IMG/VR virus record: IMGVR_UViG_3300023198_001009
Coordinates: 1-22,716 of that record
Source: a virus
Length of the DNA stretch: 22,716 bases
Direction: 5' to 3' (one strand)
The notes below the pieces were generated by a model. That model searched no databases and had not been told where the DNA came from. It worked only from the letters and a program-made list of their open reading frames with translations. The stretch's first letter is position 1, and the number at the start of each line of letters is the position of its first letter. A program made the position numbers and the translations under genes. Shown here piece by piece: positions 1,652-22,397 of this stretch.

Positions 1652-2785
1652 ATGTGTATAGGTAAAATTTATAAAAGGTCCACGGCTCTGGTTGTTGATT
1701 TTTCTGGCGTGAACTCTTCAGGCTCAGGGATAACTGGCTTAACTGTTAAGTTTTCAATATATGATGTTGCAACAAGCAAATATTGGGATAACGCCAGCGG
1801 TGCTTTTGATTCTGTTGCTGAAGTTTTAAACACCGCCGCTGAAATTGGTGACGGCTTATATAATTATGTTTTGACCGCGGGATATGCTTTGGGCGGAACT
1901 GAGTTTGTTGTTCATACTGAAGCAACGCAAACGGTTGCTGGGGATATATACGACACCGCTGAAACTTATCTGTTAACCGGCCTTGCTGATATAGTCATGG
2001 TAAATGGTTCGTTGACTGATGGATACAACGCAACATTAAAATTGAAAAAGCTTGATATTCAGAACAGCGCCGGGGATGCAATCAGCGCTGTTTCAACCGG
2101 CGCAAATGGATCCGGTTTCGTGACAACTGGGAACGGCTCCGGGCATGGTCACATAAGCACGGGCGGAGCTACTGGACACGGGAAATATAATAAGGGCGGA
2201 TCTAACTCAGGTCATGGGATGTATAGTGAGGCAATAGGGGTTGGAGATGGTACGAAACATGTTGGCCAAGGTGGCGGTGCAGGCCAAAGAAACACGGGCT
2301 CATCTGCAGCCGCAGGAGTGGAAAACCTCGGCGGCGGTGGCGGTGCCGGTGGACCGGGAACTTTAAACACCGGGCAATTGACTGCTCATGGAACAAAAAA
2401 CGTTGGTGGAGCAACGGGGCACGGTGTATATAATTTAGGCGGGGCAACTTCGGGGCATGGAACATATAGTTTTGCACCAACACTGGGGGCCGGTATAAGA
2501 TCAGAAGCTAACGGACTGAATATGAGCGGAGCGGTTTTTGTAAAGGGAACCGGCACTGGAAAAGATATTGAAGCGGATGAAATCGGAGACATAACAACAA
2601 TCGGCGGATCAGCAACCATTGATACTATTTCAATTACCACTCTTTTTGAATTGCTTTTGGCTCAGGCTTCCGGTAAAATTTTAAAGGGTACGCCATCCGC
2701 GGGTAAAATGACTGTTTACAAACAAAACGGTTCAACGGTTTTGAAAGTTTTTGATATCACTTCAACATTAAGAGATCCTGTTTAA
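1652..2785 (+). CDS. Putative tail fibre/adhesin with Gly-His-rich repeat region
   Basis: A 377-residue protein with three parts. Residues 1-110 look like a beta-sandwich attachment domain (VDFSGVNSSGSGITGLTVKF, then YDVATSKYWDNASGAF and GLYNYVLTAGYALGG), a pattern seen in phage baseplate or fibre proteins. Residues about 150-280 are very rich in Gly and carry imperfect repeats built on GHG followed by an aromatic: TGHGKYN (175-180), SGHGMYS (187-192), TGHGVYN (256-261), SGHGTYS (268-273). Residues 300-377 form a small C-terminal domain (LFELLLAQASGKILKG, then VYKQNGSTVLKVFDIT). Polyglycine receptor-binding tips are known in phage adhesins such as T-even gp38; similarity here is by composition only. 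It ends in a TAATG overlap with gp46 copy 1. An adhesin role is inferred. Confidence 0.65.
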   Translation: MCIGKIYKRSTALVVDFSGVNSSGSGITGLTVKFSIYDVATSKYWDNASGAFDSVAEVLNTAAEIGDGLYNYVLTAGYALGGTEFVVHTEATQTVAGDIYDTAETYLLTGLADIVMVNGSLTDGYNATLKLKKLDIQNSAGDAISAVSTGANGSGFVTTGNGSGHGHISTGGATGHGKYNKGGSNSGHGMYSEAIGVGDGTKHVGQGGGAGQRNTGSSAAAGVENLGGGGGAGGPGTLNTGQLTAHGTKNVGGATGHGVYNLGGATSGHGTYSFAPTLGAGIRSEANGLNMSGAVFVKGTGTGKDIEADEIGDITTIGGSATIDTISITTLFELLLAQASGKILKGTPSAGKMTVYKQNGSTVLKVFDITSTLRDPV

Positions 2786-3369
2786 TGTCTGATGTAGAAC
2801 AAATTGCCTTTACTGGTCAAAGGTCTGATTCAGATGCTTATGAGTTCGCCTCATGGGGTTGGTTGACGGGTGACGCCCCGGCACCTGGTTCAGGAATTTT
2901 TGATCCGGACGCGTTTACATCTGGCGATATATGGATCAATCTTTTTGAGCAAGCCGGAACCGTTCAAATAATCAATAATGATTTACGCCGGGATCCTACA
3001 TTGGAAAGTTCTATTTTAATTTCCCTTTTTACAGATTTTCGCGCTGATGAAATCGACGCACTTCCGGACCGCTCCGGGGATCTGCGGGGATGGTGGGCGC
3101 AAATTATCGGTTCTAAATTATGGCTTTTAAAACGCTCTAAAATCACACCGGACTTACCGGACAAAATAACCGCATACATAAAAGACTCTTTACAATGGTT
3201 AATAAATGATGGTGTTGCGGAAGATGTTTTGATTAATGTTAATATTATTGAACCTTCAACCATTGAAATGGAAATAATTGTTTTGCAACCCAACATAAAA
3301 GATAATCAGTTATTTAAATATTTCTTTAATTGGGAATCGCAGAGAATAAGCAAGGGGAGAATAATTTAA
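2785..3369 (+). CDS. Baseplate wedge protein, Mu gp46-like (copy 1)
   Basis: GP46 family proteins act with gp47 and gp48 in building the contractile-tail baseplate. The family core is clear from residue 40 on: GDIWINLFEQAG, RRDPTLESSILISLFTD, SGDLRGWWAQIIGSKLWLLK, RSKITPDL, then the terminal beta-rich part INVNIIEPSTIEMEI and FFNWESQRISKG. Residues 1-40 are an acidic/aromatic extension not needed for the core. The protein is 194 residues. A second, closely similar copy lies at 4957-5775; the core regions can be aligned end to end without gaps and are identical at about two thirds of positions by eye. It is coupled to the fibre-like gene upstream (TAATG) and lies 1 base from the next gene. Confidence 0.88.
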   Translation: MSDVEQIAFTGQRSDSDAYEFASWGWLTGDAPAPGSGIFDPDAFTSGDIWINLFEQAGTVQIINNDLRRDPTLESSILISLFTDFRADEIDALPDRSGDLRGWWAQIIGSKLWLLKRSKITPDLPDKITAYIKDSLQWLINDGVAEDVLINVNIIEPSTIEMEIIVLQPNIKDNQLFKYFFNWESQRISKGRII

Positions 3370-3370
3370 A

Positions 3371-4960
3371 ATGGTCGCTTTTAATTATGAACAAGATGTT
3401 TGTAACGGACGCGGATTTGTTACCGATTCCGCAAATGGATTTTTAAAGAACTTTAGAGATTGGGTGATCAGAGCTCCCGCAGCCACGCCGGTTTCCAAAT
3501 CCACGGGCGGACCTGGTTGGTTTATTATTGATGATCAATCAATTGTATCTGGTGGAAGCGAAAATAAATATGGTTCTTTGGAAACTCATGATACAGGTTT
3601 GGGATCGTCTTTTGATACAATCGCAGAAGTTCAGGCCGTTACAGATGGAGAATTTAAACTAACAATCAACGCTGTCGCTAAAGATGTTTCTGGCATTGAT
3701 TTTAGTGGCGATTCTACATGGGAAGATTTCGCAACAAATTTACAAACGGAAATCAGGGCGGTTAGTGCTGCAGCCAATGACGGGTTTGAGGATTGTATTG
3801 TGGAACATATTAAATATTTATCATCTCACAACCCTGGGAATCAGAATATAGATTTGAAACATGGATTTAGGATTGTGCCGGGCGAAGTAAACATGGCTGT
3901 TTTGGTTTTGGCCACGGTGACAACGCCAGCGGGAACCGACATTTCCGGAAGCTCATATTTAGATATGGCTTCGGGCCGGGGCCGCATAATTTCGCCAGCT
4001 GAGGATCCGTTTATAGTTGTTAGTGATAATACAAGCCCTACGGCTTACAGTGGACACAAATTTGTAGAATTATTTATGGACACAACGGAGAGCGGAGAAA
4101 TATTGATAAGAACATGGATGTTTTGGGACGCAACGTTACACCGTGGCTTTGGATTATATGGATTACATAAAATAAATACATATGATGACGCTGATTTTGT
4201 TTATGATTTTCGGGGCGGTCCTGAATGTTTAATTATTCAATCCAGGCTAGGCACATCATGGGATAGTTATGTATTGGATGAGTGGACAGATTTGTCTAAT
4301 CTTGTTGAGAGTGCAGCAAAAGAAGGGAACACCGCCGCCGCCGTTGCCGCCTCCGCAACCTCTTTTGATGTTGGAGCCGGGGAGGGTGTAAATTTTACGG
4401 CTGGAAAATATTATTTTCTCATGGACCTGGACAACTCGGAGGCTGTTGAATATGTAAAAGTAACGAATGTTTCAACGGACACATTGACTATTGAAACAGC
4501 TTTAACAAAAAGCTTTAAATCTGGTTCTTTATTGGCGGCTTATTATCAAAGATTTGTTGTTTGCGGAAACGAGAACTACAGCTCTAATTATCCGTATATG
4601 TGTATACCAACAAGATCCACCATAAATAAAGAATTTGGGGTTAGTTCTACATATCACTACTCAAAGGCGCGGGGTGATGTTACAGAGGAAGCATTAAATA
4701 CAATCAATCCAAATGATGAGGGTTTTTCCGCTGTTATGAAACCGATAATTGGAGAAGCGCCAAGTTATCAAGATAATGGAGATCGGTTTTATGGTACGTC
4801 TAAAAATATGTATTACACTGGTAAAGGCACAATGGCGAAAATGTTAGACGGGCGCACAATTTCAAGTTTAGAGTGGATTTATTTTCAAGTAATGAGCGCA
4901 ATACAATATATAGGGAACGGCAACATTGCGGCAATGGTCCCAAACTATAATCAAACATGA
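3371..4960 (+). CDS. Large structural protein between the two gp46 copies, unknown
   Basis: A 529-residue protein without a family name I can assign. The N terminus (YEQDVCNGRGFVTDSANGF, then FRDWVIRAP, GPGWFIIDDQS) and the many Thr/Ser-rich strand segments are typical of large virion proteins. Residues about 325-395 (SFDVGAGEGVNFTAGKYYF, MDLDNSEAVEYVKVTNVS, TDTLTIETALTKSFKSGSLL) resemble a compact beta-sandwich domain of the kind found in tail or capsid accessory proteins. Tyr and Gly are frequent near the C terminus. It starts 1 base after gp46 copy 1 and overlaps gp46 copy 2 by ATGA, so all three should be made together. A baseplate periphery or receptor-contact role is an inference from position. 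Confidence 0.7.
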   Translation: MVAFNYEQDVCNGRGFVTDSANGFLKNFRDWVIRAPAATPVSKSTGGPGWFIIDDQSIVSGGSENKYGSLETHDTGLGSSFDTIAEVQAVTDGEFKLTINAVAKDVSGIDFSGDSTWEDFATNLQTEIRAVSAAANDGFEDCIVEHIKYLSSHNPGNQNIDLKHGFRIVPGEVNMAVLVLATVTTPAGTDISGSSYLDMASGRGRIISPAEDPFIVVSDNTSPTAYSGHKFVELFMDTTESGEILIRTWMFWDATLHRGFGLYGLHKINTYDDADFVYDFRGGPECLIIQSRLGTSWDSYVLDEWTDLSNLVESAAKEGNTAAAVAASATSFDVGAGEGVNFTAGKYYFLMDLDNSEAVEYVKVTNVSTDTLTIETALTKSFKSGSLLAAYYQRFVVCGNENYSSNYPYMCIPTRSTINKEFGVSSTYHYSKARGDVTEEALNTINPNDEGFSAVMKPIIGEAPSYQDNGDRFYGTSKNMYYTGKGTMAKMLDGRTISSLEWIYFQVMSAIQYIGNGNIAAMVPNYNQT

Positions 4961-5775
4961 GTTTTAATCCTGCTATAGAATTATCACATACAATAGCGCT
5001 GTCGGATGGCGACGTTGTTGAATATGACTCCCCCGGTGTTTTTAACAATTCGGTTTCAATTAGTGAATATCCAGAAATGGCGGGCGCAAATATTGTTGTT
5101 ATAGGAGCCGGTGTTTTTAACAATTCGGTTTCAATTAGTGAATATCCAGAAATGGCGGGATTAAATTTTTCTCTTCCAAATCCTGAGCAAACCTTCACTT
5201 TAGGGGCCATTTTAAAAGTTTACGATTTGCCACCGGATCCCGGTGATGACGGTCAAATTTTATATATACAGCGCGAAGCTCCAATAATCCATACAGCTAA
5301 ATATTACGATCCGGACGCATTCCGGACCGGTGATATTTGGATCAATCTTTTGGATAACAGCGGTGAAGTTAACATGGTGAATAATGACATCCGCAGGGAT
5401 CCAACTTTAGAAAGTGCAATCATGATCGCACTGTTCACAGATAAACGGGCCAATGAAATTGATTTACTTCCGGACAAGTCCGGCGATCTTCGCGGTTGGT
5501 GGGCTGATGATATCGGATCAAAATTGTGGCTATTGAGGCGATCAAAAATTACCCCGGATTTACCTGGCCAGGTGGAACAATGGATAAAAGAAGCTTTACA
5601 GCCTTTGATTGATGACAAGGCCGTGAAAGATTTTATAATTGAGGTTAATATTATTGAACCGAATACATTGGGAATAAACATTGTTGCTGAACAGCCGAAT
5701 ATAAAACAAAATCAACTTTTCAAATATTTTTTCAATTGGGAAGCTCAGAAAATATCCAAAGGGAGATTAATATAA
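4957..5775 (+). CDS. Baseplate wedge protein, Mu gp46-like (copy 2) with N-terminal extension
   Basis: Residues about 120-272 repeat the complete GP46 core: GDIWINLLDNSG, RRDPTLESAIMIALFTD, SGDLRGWWADDIGSKLWLLR, RSKITPDLPG, VNIIEPNTLGINIV and FFNWEAQKISKGRLI. The copy at 2785-3369 matches it throughout. What differs is the N terminus: about 120 residues of beta-rich sequence that include two identical segments GVFNNSVSISEYPEMAG, 25 residues apart, created by a 75-bp in-frame tandem duplication. Length is 272 residues against 194 for copy 1. It overlaps the upstream gene (ATGA) and the gp47 gene (TAATG), which is the normal gp46-gp47 arrangement, so this copy is probably the canonical gp46. 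The N-terminal extension could carry or bind a peripheral protein; that is inference. Confidence 0.87.
   Translation: MSFNPAIELSHTIALSDGDVVEYDSPGVFNNSVSISEYPEMAGANIVVIGAGVFNNSVSISEYPEMAGLNFSLPNPEQTFTLGAILKVYDLPPDPGDDGQILYIQREAPIIHTAKYYDPDAFRTGDIWINLLDNSGEVNMVNNDIRRDPTLESAIMIALFTDKRANEIDLLPDKSGDLRGWWADDIGSKLWLLRRSKITPDLPGQVEQWIKEALQPLIDDKAVKDFIIEVNIIEPNTLGINIVAEQPNIKQNQLFKYFFNWEAQKISKGRLI
5033..5159 (+). repeat. 75-bp tandem duplication (two identical 52-bp units) inside gp46 copy 2
   Basis: Bases 5033-5084 and 5108-5159 are identical over 52 bases; the period is 75 bases, so 25 codons, and the reading frame is kept. Each unit encodes GVFNNSVSISEYPEMAG. The 23 bases between the units differ from the flanks. 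Perfect identity, including third codon positions, means the duplication is recent or is kept identical by recombination. Confidence 0.95.
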
Positions 5776-10925: not shown

Positions 10926-12110
10926 TTAGCCCTTTATCACTGCCAATGGTGTCAATTCAACTTCAATAGATACTAGATCGCTTTGGTTTTCCATTACCGT
11001 TTGAATGTCCTTGTAAGCTCCGGGGGCTTCATCCAGATCCGATTTATGCCGGATTGAATGCACAATGTTTTGATCGTCTAAAAGCTTTTTTTCGCTTTCC
11101 AGGTTTAGGGTGTTTTGTGCTTTTTTCCGGCTCATCATTCTGCCGGCACCATGGGAACATGATTGAAATGAATCCGGGTTTCCCTTTCCTGTGACTATGT
11201 AACTTTTTGAACCTTGCGATCCTGGTATAATTCCGGTTTCGCCTTCCCTGGCAGATGTTGCGCCCTTCCGGTGAATCATCACATTTGAACCAAAATGATT
11301 CTCCATTTGTGCAAAATTATGATGAATGTTAATTATAGGATCAAAAGAACAGTCTAAAACATCTGTAAATGATTCCTCAATTCTAAGCATCATTAAAACC
11401 CGATTTGCAAAAGCAAACTGAAGGGCATAATTCATAGAAGCCAAATAAGCGTCTGCTGCAGGTTCTCCAAGAGGAAGAAACGCCAGGCCGTCTTCGCCCT
11501 TAAAAGGTGGTATATCTGAAAACCATTTGGAGCACAATTCCTGTGCAAGGTTGTTGTAAAATTTGGCAATCTTATAACCAAAATTCCTGGATCCAGAATG
11601 GACCATGATCCAAATATGGCCGTCCGATCCTTTTTGAATTTCAATAAAATGGTTTCCACCCCCCAGTGTTCCAAGTTGTTTTTTTGCTGAACTTAATTGC
11701 TCTTGGATAGTCTGGATTTCAGGCGCTCTTTCAAATCCTTCCCACTCTTGATCTTTTTTATGGTGATTAAATCCCAATGGAATTCTCCCACGTATACCCC
11801 GATTAAATTTTGCTGCACCACCCATAATACTTCTAATTTCTATTGCGTTGATTTCTGTCAGAGATGTCTTTACAGCGCACATTCCACAACCGATATCAAG
11901 GCCCACGGCATTTGGAATTACAACGCCCTTTGTTGCTAATACTCCGCCAATTGGCATTCCATAACCTTGATGAGAATCCGGCATTATTGCGACATGTTTA
12001 AACGTAAAAGGAAGGTTGGCAAGGTTTTTTGCTTGCTCAAGCGCTCCGCTTTCCATGTCATCCAACCATAATTTGATTGGCACTTTTTCGGTGTTAATTA
12101 CTTGTTTCAT
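10926..12110 (-). CDS. rtcB: RtcB-type RNA ligase (RNA repair)
   Basis: Joins RNA ends carrying 2',3'-cyclic or 3'-phosphate to 5'-OH ends, using GTP and Mn2+. In this 394-residue protein all recognisable RtcB motifs are present: HQGYGMPIGGV (47-57), LDIGCGM with D72 and C75 as metal ligands, LGGGNHFIE (149-157) with N153 and H154, HSGSRNFG with H171, NIHHN with H263/H264, IHRKGA (279-284), and SHGAGR with H320, the histidine that is guanylylated in the family. Length is normal (about 400). It starts right after an AAGGAG embedded in the end of the upstream gene, and overlaps it by ATGA. No archease gene is seen nearby. In phages RtcB-like ligases may repair tRNAs cut by host defence nucleases; that role is inferred here. 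Confidence 0.95.
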   Translation of the reverse strand: MKQVINTEKVPIKLWLDDMESGALEQAKNLANLPFTFKHVAIMPDSHQGYGMPIGGVLATKGVVIPNAVGLDIGCGMCAVKTSLTEINAIEIRSIMGGAAKFNRGIRGRIPLGFNHHKKDQEWEGFERAPEIQTIQEQLSSAKKQLGTLGGGNHFIEIQKGSDGHIWIMVHSGSRNFGYKIAKFYNNLAQELCSKWFSDIPPFKGEDGLAFLPLGEPAADAYLASMNYALQFAFANRVLMMLRIEESFTDVLDCSFDPIINIHHNFAQMENHFGSNVMIHRKGATSAREGETGIIPGSQGSKSYIVTGKGNPDSFQSCSHGAGRMMSRKKAQNTLNLESEKKLLDDQNIVHSIRHKSDLDEAPGAYKDIQTVMENQSDLVSIEVELTPLAVIKG

Positions 12111-13983: not shown

Positions 13984-14208
13984 TCACCAAACTGGCGATT
14001 TGTCGTTGATATTCCAATCCAGTGGCGGCGGTTCTGGCAATTTTTGCTTTTTCGGTTTCGTAAATTCCCATGGCGCCCAGCCGTGAGTTTCGCGAAATTG
14101 CAGAATTCTGTCTAAAATTCTTAAATCTTTGTCGTTCCATGGTTCAGCCTTTTTGTAAAGTTGATCTTCAGTTTTGTGAATTATTTCGAACTTTCCGTTT
14201 AGATTCAT
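13984..14208 (-). CDS. Unknown 74-aa protein downstream of the helicase
   Basis: Not recognised. It contains a helical centre (AEPWNDKDLRILDRILQFRE) and a Pro/Lys-rich C-terminal part (KPKKQKLPEPPPLDWN). It overlaps the helicase gene by ATGA and so is made with it. A helicase accessory factor is possible by position, but there is no sequence support. Confidence 0.6.
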   Translation of the reverse strand: MNLNGKFEIIHKTEDQLYKKAEPWNDKDLRILDRILQFRETHGWAPWEFTKPKKQKLPEPPPLDWNINDKSPVW

Positions 14209-15491
14209 TTGATTTGTTGGCTAATTGTTAAAAAATCTTCGCAATTCAAAAACCTATTTCTAGTCATATCAAAAGCCAGATCAAAGCGCCCTGTGTCCCC
14301 GGATCTGTTTTTGGGGATTATGACCTCAACTCTTCCCTTTTCCTGTTTTTTGTCAAAAAACCACGCATGATAAAGCAAAATAATTGCGTGCGCATCAAAT
14401 TCAATTTGGCCGGACTCCCTCAAATCGGACATAACCGGGCGCTTATCCTGGCGGTTTTCAATTCCGCGGTTTAAGGAAGAAAGGACCAAAACAGGAACGT
14501 TCAGAATTTTAGCCATGCTTTTCAATCCTTTGCTCAAAGCGGAAACCGCTTCAAATCTGGAAATGTTTTTACCGGAAGTTTTGATATATTGTAAATAATC
14601 GATCACAACTAAATCCAAACCAACTTCCAATTTTTGACGGCGGCATTTTGAAAAGATTTTGCTCAAACTCAAATCCGGATAATCTTCAAACCAAACGTTT
14701 TTTGTTGAAACCTGGGCCATGGTTTCGGCCAAATCATTCATTTTGATTTTGTCCAGCCCCTTTTTTTCCTTCAATAGATTTGCTTTGATCCCTCCCTGGG
14801 CGGCAATTAAACGATCTGAAAGTTCCTCTTTGTCCATTTCCAAACTAAAAAACATTGTTTTAACCATGGATTTCATGGCAATATTTAGCGCCAGGGTTGT
14901 TTTTCCTGATCCGGGTGATCCGGCAAGCACGTACATTTTGCGCTTTTGGAGTCCAAACAATAATTCATCCAAACTGGTAAACCCGGTTTTCAAGCCCATT
15001 TTAGCGCCGTTATTGATTTCTTCATATTTTTTGGATGCCGCCTGCATTAAATCATGGGTACTTTGGGGCTTTTCTGTGATAGTGTCCTGATTCAGATTGA
15101 TGGCAAAGCTTTCAATTTCGGCAATTATTTCCGGTATTTGGTTTTCAGGCTTTGAGGTTAAATTATTGATTTCAGCGCAATGTTTGACAATTTTCCGCCT
15201 TAAGTATGCGTTTTTGACAATCTTCACGTTGTCACTTAATCCAAAAGTGCTATAAAGGGAAGTTTTGCAATTGAGCAAATAATCAAGGTGGTTTTGGATC
15301 AATCCGCCTTCAGTGATGTCCAACATATCAACGGATCCTTTTTCATCAAAAACCCTCCGGATTTCTTTATAAATCATTTGGTGTTTTGTGGTAAGAAAAT
15401 ACTCTGGCTTCAATTGATCAAAAGCTTCTAAACTCTGTTTATCATCCAAAAGAATACAGCCTAAAACGTGGCGCTCTGCTTTTTCAATCAC
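14205..15491 (-). CDS. Replicative DNA helicase, DnaB-like
   Basis: Hexameric 5'-3' helicase for phage DNA replication. With the GTG start at 15491 it has 428 residues. The N-terminal DnaB domain occupies about 1-105 (ERHVLGCILLDD, FLTTKHQMIYKEIRRVF). The RecA-like C-terminal domain follows TGFTSLDELLFGLQ. It carries Walker A GSPGSGKT (191-198), a helix with FFSLEMDKEELSDRL, Walker B VVIDYLQ (295-301), LSSLNRGIENR (338-348) in place of the usual LSQLNR, and SDLRESGQIEFDAHAI. GTG is preferred over an upstream ATG because AGGGGG stands about eight bases ahead and because the longer frame would overlap most of the initiator C terminus. It overlaps the O-like gene by eight bases. Confidence 0.93.
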   Translation of the reverse strand: MIEKAERHVLGCILLDDKQSLEAFDQLKPEYFLTTKHQMIYKEIRRVFDEKGSVDMLDITEGGLIQNHLDYLLNCKTSLYSTFGLSDNVKIVKNAYLRRKIVKHCAEINNLTSKPENQIPEIIAEIESFAINLNQDTITEKPQSTHDLMQAASKKYEEINNGAKMGLKTGFTSLDELLFGLQKRKMYVLAGSPGSGKTTLALNIAMKSMVKTMFFSLEMDKEELSDRLIAAQGGIKANLLKEKKGLDKIKMNDLAETMAQVSTKNVWFEDYPDLSLSKIFSKCRRQKLEVGLDLVVIDYLQYIKTSGKNISRFEAVSALSKGLKSMAKILNVPVLVLSSLNRGIENRQDKRPVMSDLRESGQIEFDAHAIILLYHAWFFDKKQEKGRVEVIIPKNRSGDTGRFDLAFDMTRNRFLNCEDFLTISQQIK

Positions 15492-16197
15492 GTTGGAGCC
15501 CCCTGATTGGTACTTTTTGCGTAAAACTGGAGGATGAGTTGAAAGGATTATTTTCCATTGGGGTATCCCAATCTTTCCAAAAATCATTCCTTAAAAAACG
15601 CTCCGGATCTTTTGGGTATGCATTATTTAAACCGTAATTTTTAGCGTTTTTTATAACCCGATCAATGTTTGACAGAGTTATTTTTTTAAAGTTTTTTAAT
15701 GAGGCTTTTTTACCAACCTTTTTCCCTTTCCTTTTTGGGTAAACTTCCCAAAATAACTCAAATTTTTGATCATAAATGTTTTTTTCTCCTTCCGTTTCCG
15801 TTTCCGTTTCCGTTTCCGTTTCCAACATTTTGTTTTTTCCTGCCTGCAGATGACCGTCACTTGTCAGGCAATTTTTTGGGGGATCTGGAAATTTGCTTTT
15901 TTTAGCCCTTAAACGCTGGTTAAATTCTGGAATTAGCAAATAAGGCTTGTTATTTGATTCATACTTAATAAGTAATTCCATTTTTATACATTCAGTTAAT
16001 AACCTATTTATATTGTTTACCGTCATTTTTGGCTTAAGGGGATACATTCTAGATTTAAGCATTAGTTCCCGCCCGTCAAACCGCCCGTGGTCATCTGCGC
16101 ATAAAATCAAGCGCACAAAAAAACACTCCGCCTCCGGGCTTAGTGCGTTGATTTTTTCAGAATCTAAAAAGCCATCTCTTATCATTCTTGTGGGCAT
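15484..16197 (-). CDS. O-like replication initiator/helicase loader
   Basis: Phage replication protein placed directly before the helicase, as in lambda-type O/P modules. The 237 residues fall into an N-terminal winged-helix-like domain (MPTRMIRDGFLDSEKINALS, CADDHGRFDGRELMLKSRMY, LLTECIKMELLIKYESNNKP), a hinge at about 100-140 containing the ETETETETETE tract, and a C-terminal domain (KFELFWEVYPKRKGKKVGKK, FKKITLSNIDRVIKNAKNYG, ERFLRNDFWKDW), the arrangement of O-family proteins that bind iterons and recruit helicase. ATG 16197 was chosen because it overlaps the HNH stop as TAATG and has AAAGGA upstream. The longer frame would run into HNH coding sequence. No origin iterons are obvious within the gene apart from the hexamer tract. 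Confidence 0.8.
   Translation of the reverse strand: MPTRMIRDGFLDSEKINALSPEAECFFVRLILCADDHGRFDGRELMLKSRMYPLKPKMTVNNINRLLTECIKMELLIKYESNNKPYLLIPEFNQRLRAKKSKFPDPPKNCLTSDGHLQAGKNKMLETETETETETEGEKNIYDQKFELFWEVYPKRKGKKVGKKASLKNFKKITLSNIDRVIKNAKNYGLNNAYPKDPERFLRNDFWKDWDTPMENNPFNSSSSFTQKVPIRGLQRD
15791..15823. repeat. Hexanucleotide tandem repeat (5.5 units) in the replication gene
   Basis: The unit TCCGTT is repeated five and a half times without a mismatch, giving Glu-Thr repeats in the hinge of the O-like protein. Units of six keep the frame, so slippage would change only hinge length. Confidence 0.95.
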
Positions 16198-16511
16198 TAT
16201 GGTCCTTTCAGGTTGTTGCATTGACTGCAAAGAGTTTGAAGATTTTGTTTCATGTTGCAAAGTTCGGCTCCTTTGTTTGTTATGCAATAATGTACTGATT
16301 TTATATGGTCTATTTCTAAGTTCAAACTAGTTCCGCAACGGTTACATTTATAATTATCCCTTTGGAAAATTATCTGTCTGACCAAAGGATTTTTAATAAA
16401 TCCGCTGGATGAATTACGCAAAGCTTTTATTGCATCATCCGGATCGGTATTGTCAAAAATCCTTTCCAAGGTTCTCTTTTGCGGGCTCCATTTTGGAAAA
16501 ACTTTTTTCAT
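16197..16511 (-). CDS. HNH endonuclease
   Basis: The 104-residue protein ends in a compact HNH zinc nuclease: RDNYKCNRCG (51-60) with C56 and C59, LEIDHIKSV with D68 and H69, then LQTLCSQCNNLKG (91-103) with C95, C98 and N100. The first 45 residues are a basic helical region (PQKRTLERIFD, DDAIKALRNSSSGF). HNH proteins of this size occur in phages both as packaging or replication helpers and as free-standing homing nucleases. Here it lies first after the structured non-coding segment and overlaps the O-like gene by TAATG, so it is integrated into the replication operon. Only GAG close to ATG serves as a ribosome binding site, and it lies in a repeat that can pair with an upstream hairpin loop. 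Confidence 0.85.
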   Translation of the reverse strand: MKKVFPKWSPQKRTLERIFDNTDPDDAIKALRNSSSGFIKNPLVRQIIFQRDNYKCNRCGTSLNLEIDHIKSVHYCITNKGAELCNMKQNLQTLCSQCNNLKGP

Positions 16512-16512
16512 T

Positions 16513-16616
16513 TCTCAACTTTTCGGCGCGGGCTCTGATAGGAAAGTTGAGTAACCTATCAGACTCACCTTGCGGTTAACCCTGCGCATTTTGAATTTTT
16601 ACAAATCTCAACTTTT
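16513..16616 (-). promoter_or_regulatory. Hairpin with loop complementary to two flanking repeats; possible start-site pseudoknot
   Basis: TCTGATAGG (16534-16542) and CCTATCAGA (16555-16563) form a perfect 9-bp stem around a 12-base loop. In the - strand RNA the loop contains CUCAACUUU. Its exact complement AAAGUUGAG occurs inside an 11-base direct repeat present on both sides, at 16606-16616 (upstream in the RNA) and 16513-16523 (just before the HNH ATG at 16511). The loop can therefore pair with the start site, hiding the only GAG near the ATG, or with the upstream copy, leaving it free. The same three sites could instead be DNA-binding boxes (two direct, one inverted). The base pairing is read directly; the switch function is inference. 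Confidence 0.55.
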
Positions 16617-16629
16617 GATTCTATTAATC

Positions 16630-16670
16630 TAATTCATTCGATCCCAAAAAAGCAACCCCCAAATGAATTA
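16630..16670. repeat. 9-bp inverted repeat with 23-base spacer
   Basis: TAATTCATT (16630-16638) and AATGAATTA (16662-16670) are perfect inverted repeats. The spacer contains a run of six A and a run of five C. It is AT-rich and could be a DNA operator or a weak RNA hairpin; it lies between the terminator-like hairpin and the HNH leader. Confidence 0.5.
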
Positions 16671-16683
16671 TTTTGAAAATAAC

Positions 16684-16711
16684 AAGGGCGGATCCTGCAG
16701 AACCCGCCCTT
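16684..16711 (-). terminator. Terminator-like hairpin upstream of the HNH/replication genes
   Basis: AAGGGCGG (16684-16691) and CCGCCCTT (16704-16711) make a perfect 8-bp GC-rich stem with a 12-base loop. On the - strand it is followed by GTTATTTTC, and on the + strand by TTTCTCTTTT, so it could stop RNA polymerase in either direction. For - strand transcripts it lies just after the multi-stem element at 16723-16804, as expected for an attenuator or for the end of a small RNA. Confidence 0.6.
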
Positions 16712-16722
16712 TTCTCTTTTAC

Positions 16723-16804
16723 GGGACCAGGTACCAACTTTGCACTAATTACCCAGCGTTCAAGTTGGATAGTCCGGAGCAAACCTTTACCTTTTTGCGG
16801 TCCC
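16723..16804 (-). ncRNA. Candidate structured RNA with closing stem and two inner hairpins
   Basis: GGGACC (16723-16728) pairs with GGTCCC (16799-16804) to close an 82-base element. Inside are CCAACTT (16734-16740) with AAGTTGG (16762-16768), loop 21 bases, and GCAAA (16779-16783) with TTTGC (16794-16798). Together they form a three-way junction. In the - direction the element is followed 12 bases later by the terminator-like hairpin at 16684-16711, so it could be a riboswitch-like attenuator or a small RNA of about 120-140 bases. There is no open reading frame of note across it. The strand is inferred from the neighbouring genes and the terminator; no known RNA family was recognised. Confidence 0.4.
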
Positions 16805-16954
16805 TATTGGGTTATTCTCTCATAATATACCTCAGTTAAATTTCAAGTTTTTAATTTCAGTCTACAGTATTAAGACAAGCATCTGATCAAATTATAAACA
16901 ATTCCCCACAACCACACAACCGAAAACTTTAACCATGCACCACATGAACCCGGA

Positions 16955-16978
16955 TCCGGCCAGGAAGGAAAGGCCGGA
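16955..16978. repeat. GC-rich hairpin after the coiled-coil gene
   Basis: TCCGGCC (16955-16961) and GGCCGGA (16972-16978) form a perfect 7-bp stem around a purine-only (+ strand) 10-base loop. It lies about 40 bases after the stop of the gene at 17017. There is no T-run after it on either strand, so it is not a canonical terminator. The remaining bases of 16805-17016 show only AT-rich sequence with a possible weak promoter. Confidence 0.5.
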
Positions 16979-17016
16979 CATTGCCAGGATTGAAAAGTTG
17001 CATTCAGGGATTGAGA

Positions 17017-17211
17017 TCATAAACTTAACCGTTTTTTAGCCAACCGATCAATTTCGTCCAGTTCAGACTCGATTTGCTTTAATTCTAAAACTTCTTTTTC
17101 TCTGAGTTTGACATATTGTTGTTTTTCTCTGAGTTTGACATATTTTTTAGCCAGTTTTCCCCGCCTAACTGAAAGATCCCTGTTGGTTTTGAACAATTCC
17201 CAAAATTTCAT
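17017..17211 (-). CDS. Small coiled-coil protein with internal 9-residue duplication
   Basis: Not recognised. The 64 residues are almost wholly charged helix (VLELKQIESELDEIDRLAKK). YVKLREK appears twice, nine residues apart, because of a 27-base tandem duplication. It overlaps the upstream 58-aa gene by ATGA and has GGGGGTG just ahead of its ATG. It is the last gene before the non-coding segment 16512-17016. Probably a small dimerising protein; no function assigned. Confidence 0.6.
   Translation of the reverse strand: MKFWELFKTNRDLSVRRGKLAKKYVKLREKQQYVKLREKEVLELKQIESELDEIDRLAKKRLSL
17095..17144. repeat. 27-bp period direct repeat within the coiled-coil gene
   Basis: Bases 17095-17117 and 17122-17144 are identical over 23 positions; the period of 27 keeps the frame (nine codons). 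It is a recent in-frame duplication in a heptad-like helix. Confidence 0.93.
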
Positions 17212-22022: not shown

Positions 22023-22397
22023 TTAACCACTGATAGCTCTTTTTATAAACTGACAGTTCATGCATAATATTTGATAATCCTCTGGTAAATATTGGTTGGT
22101 TGCACGGAGATATACACCACGTTCACCAAGTTGCTTTCTTTCTTCAGAACCATTATTTTTAATGTGGTCAAGAGTTAATGCCCTGGCATCTTCAAACCCA
22201 CAATCAACGCATTTTCGGCCATAGATTTCATAAATTTTTTCTCTCAATCTGGCTTTTGCGTCCCTAGATTGCTTCCGATATTTTTCTGGATTCTCTGCAC
22301 GATATTTCCGCATTAACTCAGTTTTTCTTTTCCGAGTTTTCTTCTTATTCCGGTTATACCAATCACGATAATTTTTTCTGTCTTTTTCTGTTCTCAT
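22023..22397 (-). CDS. HNH-type protein with basic N terminus
   Basis: The first 60 residues are a strongly basic helix (RKNYRDWYNRNKKKTRKRKT, KYRKQSRDAKARLREKI) of the type used for DNA binding by free-standing phage homing nucleases. Residues 61-120 form an HNH-like zinc domain: CVDCG with C63/C66, RALTLDHIKNNG with D77/H78, and YQILCMNCQFIKR with C112/C115. The final catalytic-side residue is Gln116 where related proteins often have Asn or His, so activity is uncertain. It begins 15 bases after the methyltransferase-like stop, without a clear ribosome binding site, and stands alone between coupled genes, as expected for an inserted element. Confidence 0.72.
   Translation of the reverse strand: MRTEKDRKNYRDWYNRNKKKTRKRKTELMRKYRAENPEKYRKQSRDAKARLREKIYEIYGRKCVDCGFEDARALTLDHIKNNGSEERKQLGERGVYLRATNQYLPEDYQILCMNCQFIKRAISG

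Follow-up and report, generated by a model that had tools for sequence, protein, structure and literature searches.

RNA-based phage immunity has already been documented in P4, where an antisense RNA keeps the phage dormant, in P1/P7, and in those C4 relatives that one Rfam model can detect. In P4, the CI RNA pairs with a site upstream of it (seqA) and with another one downstream (seqC), and halts transcription of the replication genes (PMC4825925). C4, the antisense RNA of P1/P7 with its a1b1/a2b2 targets (RF01695, RF03163), is a junction RNA built from the stems P1 to P3 whose loop occludes a ribosome-binding site (PMC5320573). We took the phage P4 genome as a positive control, where Rfam C4 (RF01695) identifies the CI RNA at 74.9 bits, with isrK and its terminator lying upstream. 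Besides P1, the P4 CI RNA has a P2 whose loop measures 4 nt and a P3 whose loop measures 12 nt. This P3 loop finds its best complements at -190, ahead of the terminator, and at +78, where the next gene has its ribosome-binding site.

Here we describe a predicted junction RNA on the minus strand of a viral DNA of 22,716 nucleotides (IMG/VR record IMGVR_UViG_3300023198_001009; this whole stretch is hereafter called the window). By analogy with the systems above, it is probably a diverged antisense RNA of the P4 CI / P1 C4 type that controls an HNH-initiator-DnaB replication operon.

The replication operon and its leader

The operon opens with a gene for an HNH endonuclease, followed by those for a replication initiator and a DnaB-type helicase (Table 1), and the stop codon of the HNH gene overlaps the start of the initiator gene (TAATG). 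No integrase or repressor, and thus no sign of a temperate lifestyle, was recognised among the proteins scanned. Elsewhere, the window holds a second HNH endonuclease gene (22023-22397, minus strand; PHROG 4e-11), a gene for an RtcB-type RNA ligase in the early region (10926-12110, minus strand), whose product shares about 42% identity with the RtcB proteins of phages of Stenotrophomonas and Caulobacter, and two paralogous genes of the tail/baseplate region (4957-5775 and 2785-3369, both plus strand), the latter carrying the tandem peptide repeat GVFNNSVSISEYPEMAG.

A noncoding gap of 500 bp lies ahead of the HNH gene and holds the junction RNA, a second folded segment termed RNA A, and a terminator-like hairpin. 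The leader could start from a promoter read by eye, with a perfect -10 and a weak -35 box, which falls below the threshold of the promoter scan. RNA A together with the terminator-like hairpin (16830-16680) folds at -49.5 kcal/mol (z -2.75), and a weaker 7-nt complement of the P3 loop, AAAGTTG (16741-16735), is located inside one of its predicted stems. The number of terminator-like matches in the leader region is not above chance.

Table 1. Features of the leader and of the replication operon in the window.
Feature	Position	Strand	Description
Possible leader promoter	16891..16919	-	TTGTGT - 17 nt - TATAAT; start expected near 16884
Second structured RNA (RNA A)	16723..16804	-	GGGACC...GGTCCC closing stem, CCAACTT/AAGTTGG stem
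Intrinsic-terminator-like hairpin after RNA A	16684..16711	-	12 pairs, 7 GC, T-rich tail
seqA	16606..16616	-	upstream repeat AAAAGTTGAGA, complements P3 loop; core 16615-16607
C4/CI-like three-way-junction RNA	16526..16587	-	predicted fold: P1 + P2 + P3
P1	16587-16579/16533-16526	-	GCGCaGGGU/GCCCGCGC
P2	16576-16567	-	ACC-GCAA-GGU, GCAA tetraloop
P3	16563-16555/16542-16534	-	UCUGAUAGG/CCUAUCAGA, loop UUACUCAACUUU
seqB	16543..16551	-	CUCAACUUU within 12-nt P3 loop
seqC	16513..16523	-	downstream repeat AAAAGTTGAGA over HNH ribosome-binding region; core 16522-16514
HNH endonuclease gene	16197..16511	-	104 aa; Pfam HNH 9.2e-6; PHROG HNH 1.3e-9
Replication initiator gene	15484..16197	-	237 aa, from ATG 16197; PHROG replication initiation protein 2.6e-14
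DnaB-type helicase gene	14205..15587	-	Pfam DnaB_C 6.3e-75

The predicted three-way junction and its complementary sites

The first-pass annotation had pointed out a 9-bp hairpin, an 11-base direct repeat on its two sides, and a loop complementary to both copies of this repeat. All three are real and, on rechecking, agree in coordinates and sequence. The perfect stem (TCTGATAGG/CCTATCAGA) encloses a 12-nt loop, TTACTCAACTTT, in which the 9-mer CTCAACTTT is exactly complementary to the cores of seqA and seqC, and 2 nt separate the seqC core from the HNH ATG, with a weak Shine-Dalgarno match in seqC (-2.7 kcal/mol). What had been overlooked is that the hairpin forms one arm, P3, of what is predicted to be a three-way junction, where P1 encloses the hairpins P2 and P3 in both the minimum-energy and the centroid structures. 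The junction fold of 91 nt reaches -26.4 kcal/mol with a significant z of -3.1 (z -2.6 for another fold), and P1, P2 and P3 together amount to -26.1 kcal/mol vs. -12.0 kcal/mol for P3 alone.

The sequence AAAGTTGAG occurs three times in the 22.7 kb, all within 104 bases (16513-16616). Perfect inverted repeats with at least 9 bp and a loop of 4-20 nt number just two in the window, one being the P3 stem and the other the seqB:seqC pair that overlaps it. In a duplex scan, seqA and seqC are level as the best sites for seqB at -10.4 kcal/mol each, followed by the AAAGTTG of RNA A at -8.0 kcal/mol. Each single pairing falls inside the range of the best sites in shuffled leaders; the unusual feature is the pair of exact sites, not either pairing taken singly. 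We searched 300 dinucleotide-shuffled windows on both strands for a loop that is closed by at least 5 bp and has exact 9-nt complements on its upstream and its downstream side, and none contained this geometry. The arrangement is thus unlikely to be due to chance, because the complementary 9-mers are confined to the element and the geometry is absent from the shuffled windows. One could still think of a remnant, where a recent duplication of the 20-bp start region came to lie beside a fortuitous hairpin, and the repeats can indeed be extended to 21 nt at 86% identity. Set against the shuffled windows and against a related phage that shares the anatomy with a different sequence (see below), such an origin is highly improbable.

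The first-pass annotation read the locus as a translational switch heading the HNH-initiator-helicase transcript, where the loop would alternate between seqA and seqC in one molecule and so open or close the HNH start. In the repZ leader of IncB/IncI plasmids, a loop pairs near the start site and the resulting cis pseudoknot activates translation, with a separate antisense RNA acting as the inhibitor. The window resembles this leader in having a replication-gene leader loop that pairs near a start site, but differs in that the fold predicts no strong stem sequestering the HNH start region. An RNA device does appear to lie at the head of this transcript, and one of the complementary copies covers the start site. 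Both the exact complementarity to seqA and seqC at equal energy and the overlap of seqC with the HNH start region would suit a switch in cis. The pseudoknot itself is however doubtful, since only a 3-nt linker separates P1 from seqC, which by geometric estimate is too short to reach the P3 loop past about 17 stacked base pairs and makes P1 and the seqB:seqC pairing incompatible in cis, and about 14 kcal/mol of the total -26.1 would be lost on opening P1 and P2. The related phage, moreover, retains the upstream pairing only, and the upstream/loop/downstream geometry fits the trans-acting CI antisense RNA of P4 better, so we consider a cis switch rather unlikely. The seqA:seqB pairing, with a linker of 19 nt, is compatible with the junction in cis.

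Comparison with P4 CI RNA, C4 and a related phage

The antisense reading draws on a detailed likeness to P4. Both RNAs form a P1-P2-P3 junction with a 4-nt P2 loop and a 12-nt P3 loop, both sit in the leader of a replication operon, and in both the loop complements one site upstream and, downstream, the next ribosome-binding site, in the window by exact 9-nt matches on either side. A terminator-bearing structured RNA is located further upstream in each case, isrK in P4 and RNA A with its terminator-like hairpin (16804-16684) in the window. The dimensions differ, with 8 bp in P1 vs. 17 in P4 and 9 bp in P3 vs. 5, and the spacings are shorter, the best complements of the window loop being found at -65 (seqA) and at +28 (seqC, over the HNH start). 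The strong seqA comes after the terminator in the window, whereas it precedes the terminator in P4; a weaker third complement of the window loop lies before the terminator, at -190. Like C4 of P1/P7, the element is a junction RNA whose loop would cover a ribosome-binding site, but C4 uses two loops (a′ and b′) and controls an antirepressor gene, whereas the window has one loop for both sites and a replicative operon.

The Rfam C4 covariance model gave no match at E ≤ 10 in 15900-17100 of the window, in the whole record, or in the record of the related phage, and for this reason we do not file the element as C4; by analogy it appears to work like C4/CI, its membership of C4 being not demonstrated. 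A self-cleaving ribozyme or riboswitch was likewise rejected, with no Rfam family at E ≤ 10 over the element. When 445 kb of phage DNA was scanned blind on both strands with a descriptor of the junction and a loop complementary both up- and downstream, exactly two loci came back, the P4 CI RNA and the window element; random sequence contained 2 in 3 Mb. The scan demonstrates specificity rather than independent discovery because P4 was the positive control and the window locus was known beforehand.

In the viral collection the initiator has a single close relative (L006), with 55% identity over the C-terminal part. A three-way junction immediately precedes the L006 initiator gene, and no HNH gene intervenes. 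This junction is formed by P1 CCTTACCCGGTT/AACTGGGTAAGG (12 bp), P2 CCCG/CGGG and P3 CCTG/CAGG, and the P3 loop CATAGCTGTTT matches the upstream AAACAGCTATG over 11 nt; the sequence is unrelated to that of the window but is arranged in the same way. Random sequence matched in composition contained five equally good matches of the L006 type in 4 Mb, corresponding to about 3e-4 expected per 230-nt leader. A strong downstream copy of the loop complement was not found in L006, where the best site, near the start codon at about -9.8 kcal/mol, is inside the shuffled range; in this single relative the loop/upstream pairing is kept with unrelated sequence. The gap before the L006 initiator also holds a DnaA-box-like TATCCACA upstream of the C4-like element (L006:4350-4375), a possible origin.

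No HNH relative was found in the viral contigs, and the one similar protein, a 42%-identical partial match, comes from a Pseudomonas phage. L006, moreover, carries the element without an HNH gene. The HNH gene was thus rejected as the conserved partner of the element, and the initiator looks like the constant one.

The first-pass annotation held a DNA-level reading to be equally good, namely three boxes (two direct, one inverted) bound by a repressor or replication initiator; such boxes could also mark an origin. The repeats are exact, the noncoding gap precedes the initiator gene, and an inverted pair precedes the initiator in L006 as well. Boxes would nevertheless leave unexplained P1, the GCAA-loop P2 and the significant RNA fold, the counterpart of different sequence in L006, and why the inverted box sits in a hairpin loop in both phages; there are also three boxes only and no iteron array. 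We regard DNA boxes as quite improbable.

Further searches covered DNA similarity to cultured phages, with nothing relevant, the 18-base junction piece TTAACCGCAAGGTGAGTC, with no match in 2.9 million viral contigs, and the genome collection, with no initiator relatives. The initiator relatives of gut phages (L007-L010) have neither leader gap nor element, and no element with both sites was found beside the helicase relatives L002-L005 (about 30% identical) or at 29 other loci with related initiator C-termini. Two of these loci led to a different, strongly conserved leader RNA of about 100 nt, present in 22 IMG/VR contigs and mostly located ahead of replication-initiator-like genes (L020:2380-2545, L036:2395-2515, and L046-L067, e.g., L051:4060-4165). 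Its elements are the helix TTGRCGG/CCGYCAA, the hairpin CTGG..CCAG, and a long stem, AAGCCTTAGTCAACACTCT/AGAGTGTTGTCTAGGGCTT, that continues into a T7 terminator tail; it is a candidate pseudoknotted attenuator. Its 28 pairs are 100% paired in 13 distinct sequences, and three of the pairs show two-sided (compensatory) changes; the members tested have no Rfam match, and neither an exact match in the genome collection nor a blastn match in cultured phages was found.

Probable antisense control of the replication operon

Returning to the antisense reading, the most likely role of the RNA is to repress expression of HNH-initiator-DnaB, mainly in trans. RNA control of the P4 CI / C4 type involves processing by RNase P to a stable species of ~70-80 nt. 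What the sequences show are the three complementary 9-mers, the predicted junction, the position before the operon, the same geometry in P4, and in L006 the loop/upstream pairing with a different sequence; transcription, processing, trans action, repression and immunity are inferred. The leader transcript would fold into the compact junction with the P3 loop (seqB) staying exposed, and the released or nascent RNA would pair with seqA and seqC in the same or another copy of the transcript. Pairing with seqC at the ribosome-binding site may block HNH translation and, because the two genes overlap at TAATG, initiator translation as well, leaving an untranslated transcript prone to premature termination as in P4. 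The seqA:seqB pairing in cis could shield the loop. As an outcome, a phage copy, be it resident or superinfecting, would have its replication operon kept off.

More tentatively, the element may belong to a separate, unrecognised family of P4-CI-like immunity RNAs in ordinary tailed phages, unrelated to C4 in sequence and possibly of independent origin, where a single loop targets both a site upstream and the ribosome-binding site at which the replication operon begins. As this search by geometry only indicates, such an arrangement can be present even if sequence models find nothing. Antisense RNA control of phage replication may thus be commoner than catalogued and could be searched for by complementarity, and in the phage described here it predicts a superinfection barrier that would rest on nine bases.
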